64,000 nucleotides of DNA. Source: Collinsella ihumii (GTDB taxonomy: Bacteria > Actinomycetota > Coriobacteriia > Coriobacteriales > Coriobacteriaceae). Under the pieces are notes generated by a model that was not told the origin of the DNA, made no database searches, and was given only the letters and a program-made list of their open reading frames with translations. The DNA is taken from positions 1-64,000 of the forward strand of contig NZ_FCOU01000011.1 of the NCBI RefSeq assembly GCF_900046475.1, in the 5' to 3' direction. The translations under genes and the position numbers were made by a program. Numbering within the stretch: position 1 is the stretch's first letter; each line of letters opens with the position of its first letter. This document shows, piece after piece, positions 22,490 to 27,483 of the stretch.

Positions 22490-23747
22490 TTACTGGCCGG
22501 CGGCCTCGAGCAGGGCGGTCTTCAGGTCGGACTCGATCTGGCGCATACGGCCCGCGGCGTCCTCGCGGGCGGCGCGGCCCTCCTGCTGGATCTTGATCGT
22601 CTCGTTCAAGGTGTCGATCAGGCGCTTGTTGACCTCCTCGAGCGTCTCGATATCCACGCTGCCGCGCTGCGTGGCGCGCTCGGCGTCGACCGCGCCCTGC
22701 TGCAGCGCCTCGGCGTTGGCACGCAGCAGCTTGTTCGTAGTGTCATCCACATGGTTCTGCAGGTCGAGTGCGGCGCGCTGGTTGGCCAGGCCGAGCGCGA
22801 TCACCATCTGGGACTTCCAGAGCGGAATCGTGGTCGAGATGGTCGTGTCGATCTTGTCCGAGATGCTCTTGTCGGCGTTCTGCAGCAGCTTGATCTGCGG
22901 CGCCATCTGCAGGCTCACGATGCTCACACGGTCCAGATCGTCCAGACGCTTGTCGAACCGGTCGAGCTTGTCCTTGAAGTCCTTCAGCACCTGCGCGCCC
23001 ATGGCGTCGCCGGTGGATGCCGCCTCGGCCTCGAGCGCGGGGAGCTGCTCGGCGCGGAGATCCGCCAGCGCCTGGCGGCCGGCGGCGATATAGACCTTAA
23101 GCGAGCGGTACTGGTCGACATTGCGCTGGTACATGGTGTCGTACATGGCGATATCGGCGATCATCTGCGCCTGTGCGCGCTCGAGCTTCTCCACCACCTC
23201 GTCGACCTGCGGGGCCACCTTCTGGTAGGTCCGGCGCAGCTTGTCGATACCCACCACGACCTTGCCGATGATGGGGATCTGCTTCACGCCGGAAAGCTCG
23301 GCGCTCTCCACGTCGACCAGAAGCTCGCGCAGCAGCGCCCCGGCCTCGCCCGTAGCCTTGTTCGACGTCTTGGCGAGCACGTTGTCGGCGAAATCCGACA
23401 TGGACCGCTGGGCGTCGCGCGCATAGGTGCTCTCGATGCCGCTCTTAGTGAAGTCGATCGTGGCGGCGAGCTCGCGGGCGCGCTGCTGGTCGGCAGGCGA
23501 GAGCACGACCGAGGGGGGTTGCCCTCCTGCCCGGCGGCCAGAATCTCGGCGGTCGTGGGCGAGGTCGTCTCTCCGTCCTCGTCCGCCCAGCCGCTGTCTC
23601 TTATACACATCTAGATGTGTATAAGAGACAGGCCGGCGGCGGGCCCGCACGCGCGGCCCCCTGCGAGGCCGCGATATCGGCCAAGCTGACCCTCTTTGCC
23701 GGCACAGCCTGCGCCTCGACGGGCATGACCTCGTTATTCGTATCCAT
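22490..23747 (-). CDS. TelA-like toxic-anion resistance protein, frame broken by a sequencing-adapter artefact
   Basis: The C-terminal 340 residues (PPSVVLSPADQQRARELA onward, with KQIPIIGKVVVGIDKLRRTY and SQMVIALGLANQRAALDLQ) match the TelA/YceH family of soluble, mostly helical proteins in tellurite and envelope-stress clusters. The true N-terminus is MDTNNEVMPVEAQAVPAKRV at 23747, with AAAGGGGAG upstream, and it ends in RAGPPPA. Between them lies foreign DNA (23519-23630). Taking out those 112 bp joins PPPA to PPSVV in frame and gives 381 aa. The peptide SYTHLDVYKRQ in the naive translation is the adapter read as protein. The living gene is therefore probably intact. Last gene of a four-gene cassette, 48 bp after the solute-binding-like gene. 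Confidence 0.88.
23519..23631. other. assembly artefact: Nextera mate-pair junction plus displaced copy of 26761-26835
   Basis: Positions 23594-23612 are the 19-bp Tn5/Nextera mosaic end CTGTCTCTTATACACATCT. Positions 23613-23631 are its exact reverse complement, so two mosaic ends abut. The 75 bp before them (23519-23593) repeat 26761-26835 with one mismatch, in the same orientation. A circularised fragment from 23632 to 26835 (about 3.2 kb) would give exactly this join. Confidence 0.95.
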
Positions 23748-23795
23748 AGCACTCCCCTTTCGCGAGAGGTTCTCCAGCGTATCGAAGCGGGCGCG

Positions 23796-24890
23796 TCACG
23801 ACCCGCTGACCACCTCGATCAGGCGCTGCATGGCCGCGGGCGCGGGAAGCTCGACCGCCGCGGGCACGCGCTCGGCAATGCCTGTCACCTCAAAGCGCTC
23901 GGCGCCGTCGGTGCCGAGCTGGGACGCGCCGCGAAAACCGTGCCGTTCCCAGGCGAGCTTCTGCACCTCGTCGCTCATCAGAAACTCGCTGAGCTGCTCG
24001 CCCGCCTCGTCGAGCGCCATCAGCACGTGCGTCGACCAGACCGTAGGCGTGGTGTAGGCCACCACGAGCGTATCGGCCACCTGCTCGAACAGGTCCGGCT
24101 CGTTCACGGACAGGTCGAGCACCTGGCTCTCGTAGCCCACCATCATGGGTTTGGACCCCTCGCCCAGCGTGAGGAACTGGCGAAACGAGTCCTCTGAGCT
24201 CGTCTCCATCCAGCCGGATTTGGAGAAGACCTTGCGGATGGACTCCGCGTCGCGCTCGACGGTCTCCACCGTGGCGGGCTGCCCGCCGGCAAGCGAGTTG
24301 GCGATCAACGCCGCCCATTCGTTACCCGAGTTGGACTCGGCCGGATCGGTGCTGTCGATGCGGAACTGCCCATAGCCTGCGGCGTAGCCGAGGTCGACCC
24401 ATGTCTTGTCGGCGAGCATGGCGGAAACCGCCGCGTCGACATCAAGCGTGTAGATGTCGCCGTCTTTGGCCATGATGCCGGAGCCCACCAGCGCGTCGGC
24501 AACGTCGCGATAGGTGTAGATCACGATGGGCGAGTTGAGCACGATCTGCTCAGAGACGGGCTCGATCCCCCGCTCGTGGCCGTACTCGACCGCCGCCTGC
24601 GACGAGGGGAGCAGATAGCTCATGCCCTCGATCGAAGCGTCCATCATGGCGAGCGAGCCCGCCTTGCGGTAGTCGATATCGAGCCCCGCAGCAGCTGCGA
24701 GCTCGGTAAACTGCGCGTCCTCAAACAGCGAGACCTTCTCGCCACCGAGGTATCCCGAAACCGTCGTGGGCTCCGCCACGGGCTCCGGTGCGGGCTGGGC
24801 CTGGCGCATGACGAACACACCGCCGATGATCGCCACCGCGGCGAGCACGCAGACCAGGCCGACGATCTTGCCCTTGGACCCCTTCATCAT
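23796..24890 (-). CDS. membrane-anchored solute-binding-like protein
   Basis: A 364-aa protein. It has one N-terminal membrane segment (KIVGLVCVLAAVAIIGGVFVM), then a proline- and glutamate-rich linker and a type II periplasmic-binding fold. The binding fold contains a PAESNSGNEWAALIANSL segment, SKPMMVGYESQVLDL and YTTPTVWSTHVLMAL. The ESNSG stretch parallels QSNSG in the vWA lipoprotein of the same operon, so the two carry related binding domains. No lipobox; it is held by the uncleaved anchor with the domain outside. Start 24890 overlaps the XpaC-like stop as ATGA, showing translational coupling. Ligand unknown. Confidence 0.75.
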   Translation of the reverse strand: MMKGSKGKIVGLVCVLAAVAIIGGVFVMRQAQPAPEPVAEPTTVSGYLGGEKVSLFEDAQFTELAAAAGLDIDYRKAGSLAMMDASIEGMSYLLPSSQAAVEYGHERGIEPVSEQIVLNSPIVIYTYRDVADALVGSGIMAKDGDIYTLDVDAAVSAMLADKTWVDLGYAAGYGQFRIDSTDPAESNSGNEWAALIANSLAGGQPATVETVERDAESIRKVFSKSGWMETSSEDSFRQFLTLGEGSKPMMVGYESQVLDLSVNEPDLFEQVADTLVVAYTTPTVWSTHVLMALDEAGEQLSEFLMSDEVQKLAWERHGFRGASQLGTDGAERFEVTGIAERVPAAVELPAPAAMQRLIEVVSGS

Positions 24891-25576
24891 CTCTCCCCTC
24901 TGCCGGCACGCGCGGCCCCGGCAGCCGTATCGGTATCGCCTTTCACGTCGGCGCCGTCTGGTGCAGCCGGCTCGTCCGGGCGGTAGCCATCCATCTCCAT
25001 CAGGCGTTTGATGGCCTCCGAGCTCGCCTCGAGATCGGCCGCCTTGGCGCCGGTCGCCCGCGCGAGCTCGCCTTGCGCCGCGCCCTGCAGCGCGCAGAGC
25101 GCCTCGATCGCGTCTTCGCGCGCACCGTGCACGAGCTCGGGCGTGGCCAGGCGCTCGACGCTCAGGTACCCGTCGAGCATGCGCACGCACTGCTCGCCGT
25201 AGGTAGACAGGAAGTGCGCGAGCCTACGGTAGGTCGCCGGCTGCTCCTCCACGCAGGCGATAAGCGCCTGGATATCGTGCTGCAGATCCTCGGTTTCGCG
25301 TCCGACCTGCGCATCGCAGATCTTGGCGCGACGCCGGCCGATCTGGCGATCGAGCTCGCGCGCCGCGTCGATGCGCTCCGTGGCGGCCTCGCCGTCGGGC
25401 AGCATGCTTGCCACCACGCCGCCGAGCTTGCGCTCGGGCTTCAGCAGTTGGCCCACGCCGACATAGAGCAGCGCGGCCGCGGCCAGACCGGCCACGATGC
25501 CGACCACGCCGCCCACCGCGACGATGCACGCCGCACCCGCGACAACACCCAGAAACGCCCCCAGTACGTACCCCAC
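24887..25576 (-). CDS. XpaC-like membrane protein
   Basis: A 229-aa protein from a GTG at 25576 (AGGGAC 6 nt upstream). Two hydrophobic helices open it (GYVLGAFLGVVAGAACIVAVGGVVGIVAGLAAAALLYVGVGQLL). A cytoplasmic helical domain follows: ELDRQIGRRRAKICDAQVGRETEDLQHDIQALIACVEEQPATYRRLAHFLSTY. This layout is that of the XpaC (5-bromo-4-chloroindolyl phosphate hydrolysis) family, commonly found beside telA; the enzymatic name is historical. A start at 25618 would overlap the vWA gene by about 30 bp and is less likely. Coupled by ATGA to the next gene. Confidence 0.75.
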   Translation of the reverse strand: MGYVLGAFLGVVAGAACIVAVGGVVGIVAGLAAAALLYVGVGQLLKPERKLGGVVASMLPDGEAATERIDAARELDRQIGRRRAKICDAQVGRETEDLQHDIQALIACVEEQPATYRRLAHFLSTYGEQCVRMLDGYLSVERLATPELVHGAREDAIEALCALQGAAQGELARATGAKAADLEASSEAIKRLMEMDGYRPDEPAAPDGADVKGDTDTAAGAARAGRGER

Positions 25577-25586
25577 GGCCGCGTCC

Positions 25587-27332
25587 CTAGTTGTAGCCCT
25601 TGACCTGGCGGAACACATCGGCCAGGTCGCCCTCGCGCCCGTCGAACGTCCGCCCGTTGGTGAGCGTCGTCAGCTCGTCGAGCTGGGTGGGATCCGCTTC
25701 GCCGAACATGATGGAGAAGATCGGCACGTCAACGCCCGCCTGCTCGTAGGCGGACACGAACTCGTCGCGCGCGTATGTGTCCGACTGACCGTCGGTCATG
25801 AGCACAATCGCCACTGTGTAGCCACCGTCGGCCACAGCCTGGCGCGCCAGGTCGAGCGCAGTCGAGAGGCCCGAGTACATGTCGGTGCCGCCGATCGCCT
25901 CACGCGAGCGCGCGTAGTCGAGCAGCGCCGCCGTATCGGACCCGTTGGCGGTAATCGGGCTATCGACCACATGGGTGAACGGGATGAGCACGTTGACGTC
26001 GCCCTCGTTGGGCTGGATGAGCGCCTCGGCGGCAAGCGTCGGGTCGAGTGCCTGCTCAAGACCGGCGACGACCCCCTCCTTACCCGTGCCGAGCATCGAG
26101 CCGGAATAGTCGACCACCCACAGCGTGTAGGAGGGCTTCTTCAGGCCGGTCTGGTAGAGCGTGAGCGCCTGCGAGATCACCTCGCCCGCAGGCAGCGGGA
26201 TGGACTTCAGCACACTCGCGTCCGGCACGATGCCCCATGCGGGGTTGAAGGCCGCCGCGACCTCGTCGTCGTCCGCGTGGACCACCTTGCCGCCCAAGCC
26301 GCAGCGCCTGCCCACGCGCTCGAGCTCGAGGGTCGCCGTGTCGTCGGCCAGCGCCTGCTGGATTGCGGAAAACGCCGCTTCGACCTGCTCGCCCTGCCCG
26401 TGTTCGACATAGGCGAGCGGACTGTCGGACACCGCGATGCCGTCGGCCGGGTACACCACGACCATCGGCTCGTGCCCGGCCTCCTTAAGCTCGCGATTCG
26501 CCTGTGACACGAGCGATTCGTAATTGACCATGGCCTGATGCGTGTCCGGATCGGCCACGACCATCTCCTTCAGCCAGTCGGAGGAGCCCGACGAGCGGTC
26601 CACGCCCGAAAGCAGGCTCGCAACCTGCCCGGTGAGCTGCCCGTTGGCGAGGTCCTCAGCGGTCAGCGGGCCGTCGGTTCCCGACAGCGCCGTCAAAAAC
26701 GCTAGGTAGGCCGACGCGCCGCTGTTGGACTGCGTGGCCGATGTCATGGCAAAGGTGAGCTTGCCCTCCTGCACGGCGGCCAGAATCTCGGCGGTCGTGG
26801 GCGAGGTCGTCTCTCCGTCCTCGTCCGCCCAGCCGAGCTCGATCGCCTTCGATTTCGCGATGCCGAACACCACCGGCGTGGTCGAGGTCGACTGCGCGTC
26901 GCGCACGATATGGTGCGTGTCGCCCATGGTGATCCACATGGAGGACGCCGGCCACACCGCGTCGTAATCCTCGCCGCCCGCCTCGAGCACATCCATGATG
27001 TCGAGCGAGCCCATGTAGTGCATCTCGAGCGCCACGCCGGTCTTGCCGACCGCGTACTCGATGGCCCGCGCGGCCTCTTTGTTCTCCGATCCGGACGCGA
27101 CCCGGATGCGCGTCTTCGCCGACCCATCGGCCGGTTCGAACAGCTGCACGGTGCCCGAGGTCTGCACGTCCACGTCGGCCACGTCGGCTTCCACCTCGTG
27201 CGTGGCCTCCTGCTCCGCAGCCTCGGAACCGCTCGTATCCGGCGCGCCCGAGCACCCGGTCAAAAGCCCCAGCGCCAGACAGAAGACGAACATGCAGGCA
27301 ATGGCGACAATGCGCGATACGGACCGCTTCAT
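25587..27332 (-). CDS. lipoprotein with solute-binding and von Willebrand factor A domains
   Basis: A 581-aa exported lipoprotein. The signal peptide ends in the lipobox LLTGC (Cys about 27), followed by an acidic linker. Residues of about 70-350 are a type II solute-binding domain (TRIRVASGSENKEAARAIEY, VWPASSMWITMGDTHHIV, TSATQSNSGASAYLAFLTALSG, VVVYPADGIAVSDSPLAYV). Residues of about 385-570 are a vWA domain with an intact metal site: DYSGS, then GGTDMYSGL and LMTDGQSD. The vWA domain binds a divalent cation and usually a partner protein. First gene of the vWA-XpaC-binding protein-TelA cassette. The start at 27332 has CGGAGGTC upstream. Confidence 0.88.
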   Translation of the reverse strand: MKRSVSRIVAIACMFVFCLALGLLTGCSGAPDTSGSEAAEQEATHEVEADVADVDVQTSGTVQLFEPADGSAKTRIRVASGSENKEAARAIEYAVGKTGVALEMHYMGSLDIMDVLEAGGEDYDAVWPASSMWITMGDTHHIVRDAQSTSTTPVVFGIAKSKAIELGWADEDGETTSPTTAEILAAVQEGKLTFAMTSATQSNSGASAYLAFLTALSGTDGPLTAEDLANGQLTGQVASLLSGVDRSSGSSDWLKEMVVADPDTHQAMVNYESLVSQANRELKEAGHEPMVVVYPADGIAVSDSPLAYVEHGQGEQVEAAFSAIQQALADDTATLELERVGRRCGLGGKVVHADDDEVAAAFNPAWGIVPDASVLKSIPLPAGEVISQALTLYQTGLKKPSYTLWVVDYSGSMLGTGKEGVVAGLEQALDPTLAAEALIQPNEGDVNVLIPFTHVVDSPITANGSDTAALLDYARSREAIGGTDMYSGLSTALDLARQAVADGGYTVAIVLMTDGQSDTYARDEFVSAYEQAGVDVPIFSIMFGEADPTQLDELTTLTNGRTFDGREGDLADVFRQVKGYN

Positions 27333-27395
27333 ACGAGACCTCCGAACGTTGTGGTCAGGCCATCGTATCAAACGCACATCAGGGCAATGTAAGCC

Positions 27396-27483
27396 GGCGT
27401 GACCGTAAGGCAGAGAAATAGTCACCCCGGGGCAGTCGGTTAGCCGCCCCGGGGTGACCCTTCCTCTGTCTTGCCGTCACGCC
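27396..27483. repeat. long inverted repeat after cutC
   Basis: The arms 27396-27432 and 27447-27483 are 37 bp each and pair with about seven mismatches around a 14-bp loop. The inner part GTCACCCCGGGG / CCCCGGGGTGAC is perfect. It spans the whole gap between cutC and the vWA gene and probably also ends cutC transcription. Confidence 0.65.

Follow-up and report, generated by a model that had tools for sequence, protein, structure and literature searches.

The window, which is the whole 64,000-nucleotide stretch of the Collinsella ihumii assembly that was analyzed, contains a TelA-like gene on the reverse strand. Its assignment was based on the match of 22493–23500(-) to the TelA profile (PF05816), which scored 306 bits against a curated cut-off of 30 (E 3e-91). 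The neighbors of this gene, in the region 22490–27425, encode one solute-binding-like protein, one small protein that is probably a membrane protein and one solute-binding/VWA fusion protein. Within the TelA-like gene we identified two exact 19-bp Tn5 mosaic ends lying head to head with 0 bp between them. The first, at 23594–23612 on the forward strand, matched CTGTCTCTTATACACATCT exactly, and the second, at 23613–23631 on the reverse strand, was the exact reverse complement of CTGTCTCTTATACACATCT. These ends correspond to the first and second halves of the kit junction adapter, and 23594–23631 as a whole matches the 38-bp junction sequence of the Nextera mate-pair kit exactly. Mosaic ends had a chance expectation of 0 in shuffled sequence, even with three mismatches allowed, and the GC content of the 38-mer was 37%, versus 65% for the genome. 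The initial annotation had described a 38-bp palindrome of head-to-head mosaic ends at this position, and the exactness and spacing of both ends confirmed it.

The 75 bp immediately preceding the linker (23519–23593) were a chimeric copy of 26761–26835, with 74 of the 75 positions identical; the sole mismatch is a C at 23531 where 26773 has an A. The genuine copy of this segment, 26761–26835, lies within the solute-binding/VWA-domain gene at 25587–27425(-), and the sister homologue of the 23519–23593 segment also sits in the VWA/solute-binding gene, outside telA. As the right flank of the linker begins at 23632 and the left flank copies 26761–26835, the two flanks represent both ends of one fragment, 23632–26835, of which 23519–23593 carries the far end. 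This geometry points to a DNA fragment of 3204 bp, circularized during library preparation, with its flank copies in a direct, outward arrangement. Both the 75-bp copy and a circularized fragment of 3.2 kb had been proposed from the letters of the window, and our computation agreed with each.

The linker had marked consequences for the open reading frames at this locus. As assembled, the frame beginning at the ATG at 23747(-) encountered a stop after 48 codons, within the adapter, and the N-terminal piece of the TelA-like gene is accordingly truncated to 23601–23747(-), with its end inside the adapter. The remainder of the gene is contained in a spurious 420-aa ORF at 22490–23752(-), which comprises the true TelA-like (PF05816) C-terminal part, translated adapter and out-of-frame sequence, and in which we found the adapter peptide SYTHLDVYKRQ. 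The earlier claims that the junction breaks the telA-like gene, and that it creates false proteins that include this peptide, were both upheld, the former also by the insert-free gene of sister genomes. A further claim, that deletion of 112 bp gives a single 381-aa frame, stood in part: joining the flanks by script with the 112 bp omitted produced a frame of 381 codons, but the length is not unique, as any deletion with the same remainder modulo 3 as 112 bp also restores the frame. Since the sequence around the join is G-rich and 112 bp is one of several frame-restoring lengths, this assembly does not allow exact recovery of the native bases at this spot. We also surveyed the literature on the adapter peptides VYKRQ, YTSRCV and LSLIHI, the titles and abstracts of which held nothing about assembly artifacts.

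The TelA-like gene was found in only three of the 44 other members of the genus, where the protein was 87–89% identical. A comparison with the same gene in sister genomes had been suggested in the initial annotation, and it showed telA to be uninterrupted, without the insert, in all three of these same-genus sisters. In one of them, G021 (L194), the TelA-like gene was a single 384-aa frame within the same four-gene neighborhood as in the window. The spacer between matching anchors was ~68 bp in the sisters versus 165 bp in the window, making the window ~97 bp longer, and the spacer of the sisters at the join was slightly longer than that of the window after removal of the 112 bp. Conservation of the whole neighborhood of the TelA-like gene was seen in at least one of the three genus members with the gene.

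The assembly from which the window derives comprises 2.84 Mb in 35 contigs, and is larger than that of every other genus member searched (1.6–2.5 Mb). Mosaic ends were found throughout it: there were 83 matches at up to three mismatches, while the reversed control pattern had 0. In the stretches fetched around these mosaic ends, to which the junction analysis applied, about 41 distinct head-to-head pairs were identified at up to nine mismatches, and no such pairs occurred in reversed and shuffled sequence even at 12 mismatches. Mismatches within the linkers were chiefly A>C, A>G, T>G and T>C, which is compatible with poor-quality reads. Four of the junctions were near contig ends, at distances of 8, 16, 35 and 83 bp. 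The junctions at C3:369332–369662 and C8:62139–62469 of the same genome had two linker errors in common, and their 250-bp right flanks were identical; it seems that a single chimeric read or repeat was used twice.

In a mate-pair junction, the base to the left of the linker is the far end of a fragment and the base to its right the near end, so the flank copies should be direct and outward. That is, any repeat of the left flank is predicted downstream in the same orientation, and any repeat of the right flank upstream of the linker. This arrangement was found at 19 of the 41 sites, with implied fragments of 1735–7187 bp (median 3938 bp), sizes like those of the kit, versus 1, 2 and 0 in three sets of 41 random-position controls. 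None of the 41 sites had same-contig flank copies solely in some other arrangement. Counting against the mate-pair reading, at six junctions the flank matched on other contigs only, and at the remaining 16 a second flank copy was undetected in the stretches examined; nearby contig ends, flanks left too short, or partner ends lying beyond those stretches could explain both groups.

These observations bear on whether the sequenced strain carries a real Tn5-derived insertion in its TelA-like gene, either a laboratory transposon or an excision scar. Tn5 mutagenesis is common in laboratories, and the mosaic end, itself a transposon end, derives from those of Tn5/IS50. However, with 0 bp between the two ends there is no transposon body, transposase or marker, and a 9-bp target duplication was absent from the window site (GCCCAGCCG versus GCCGGCGGC) and found at 0 of 40 sites. 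In addition, about 41 sites in one strain would have to be accounted for, and transposition does not yield copies of flanks kilobases away in one fixed geometry. The end sequence is itself artificial, as the hyperactive mosaic end was substituted in vitro for the natural Tn5 ends (PMC4248319). Based on the missing target duplication, the missing body and the number of sites, we rejected a real insertion, which is very improbable.

The other adapter sequence in the assembly was informative as to the type of library. An exact and complete TruSeq adapter was identified at C2:61595 (L199 1501–1850), extending through the index CAGATC and flow-cell sequence, and was followed by a poly-A run and then by AT-rich run-on of ~200 bp, although the contig has 65–70% GC. 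A built-in TruSeq adapter with such run-on indicates that adapter trimming had been omitted for some, if not all, of the reads that went into the assembly. A search of the same assembly for Nextera index tails identified none. In the mate-pair kit, mosaic-end junctions go together with TruSeq outer adapters, and TruSeq sequence in the absence of Nextera tails is what a mate-pair library that had not been trimmed should leave. Ordinary paired-end Nextera libraries contain the same 19-bp end, and read-through of their adapter could be considered in place of a mate-pair junction. Such read-through would, however, place index tails after the mosaic end, and nearly all of the mosaic ends in this assembly were in head-to-head pairs with kilobase-scale flank copies. 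We rejected it on the absence of the tails, and judge it very improbable as well. That the linker is physically in the DNA of the strain, for instance through repeated in vivo insertion of adapter-like DNA that left dozens of mosaic-end pairs enclosing nothing and having flank copies at distant sites, is barely conceivable.

Among species-representative genomes, at least 111 stretches contained the exact 38-mer; they belong to unrelated species, cyanobacteria, enterococci, Streptomyces and MAGs among them, and other public assemblies with it include those of Enterococcus sp. 10A9_DIV0425, Bittarella massiliensis GD6, Olsenella massiliensis SIT9 and Scytonema tolypothrichoides VB-61278. It was also present in seven stretches of viral contigs and in five plasmid records (NZ_CP032357.1, NZ_MT039157.1, NZ_KY978628.1, NZ_MF589339.1 and NZ_MF918372.1). 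This spread across assemblies is the distribution of a reagent and not of a lineage. The least probable reading of all is that the 38-mer represents a natural family of palindromic repeats, either a short mobile element or a binding site, as its ~41 dispersed copies within one genome might suggest; we rejected it on the absence of the sequence from the 44 other genus members and all 66 family relatives searched (0/66) and its presence in the unrelated assemblies listed above, and it is further opposed by the lack of the 38-mer in the complete E. coli genomes and phage records searched, by a GC content of 37% inside a 65% GC genome, and by the outward flank copies, which a natural repeat leaves unexplained.

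Together, the observed match to the kit sequence, the arrangement of the flanks, the recurrence across the genome and the comparison with sisters indicated that a Nextera mate-pair library junction left untrimmed before assembly accounts for the feature in the window, an explanation to which we assign a probability of about 0.985. The initial annotation had made the same claim, and each testable prediction of such a junction, in sequence, geometry, contig ends, relatives and adapters, agreed with what we found. In the chemistry described for NextClip, tagmentation attaches a biotinylated 19-bp adapter to both ends of a fragment and circularization joins them; mate-pair reads cross the junction adapter, hence the need for trimming (PMC3928519). 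The window feature resembles the known junction in its 19+19 bp head-to-head adapter from tagmentation and circularization and in having flanks from both ends of a kilobase-sized fragment (PMC3928519, PMC6298255). It differs in that the known junction occurs in raw reads, whereas here it was retained inside contigs.

In the kit, transposase adds a 19-bp mosaic end to each end of kilobase-sized fragments, circularization brings both mosaic ends of a fragment head to head, and the junction-spanning piece is then sequenced. A read from the circle 23632–26835 would consist of the far end, 26761–26835, the two mosaic ends, and then the near end from 23632 onward. We infer that the assembler used such a junction read at this spot; bridging of the GC-rich stretch of the TelA-like gene with it would have left the contig carrying the 38-bp linker together with 75 bp from a distant site.

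A mate-pair junction of this kind has no biological meaning, yet it has corrupted annotation, with a TelA-family gene broken and false proteins with adapter peptides created, and about 40 further sites in the same genome are affected. Artifacts of this type are already known and are present in many public genomes. Where the 38-mer stands in public records it can make genes look interrupted or duplicated when they are not and create spurious peptides shared between records; searching for the 38-mer would be a simple way to catch such artifacts.

The other assemblies with the same 38-mer resemble this one in having the exact junction within contigs, many with flank copies that are adjacent or distant. 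In genomes of other species, the same flank was present on both sides of the linker (X-linker-X) at 35 of 138 junctions, against 2 of 138 controls; the site in the window does not show this pattern. In these cases scaffolding or gap filling probably used the adapter to join contig ends. At least two of the five plasmid records with the 38-mer were described as complete sequences, and one had two junctions within 530 bp.
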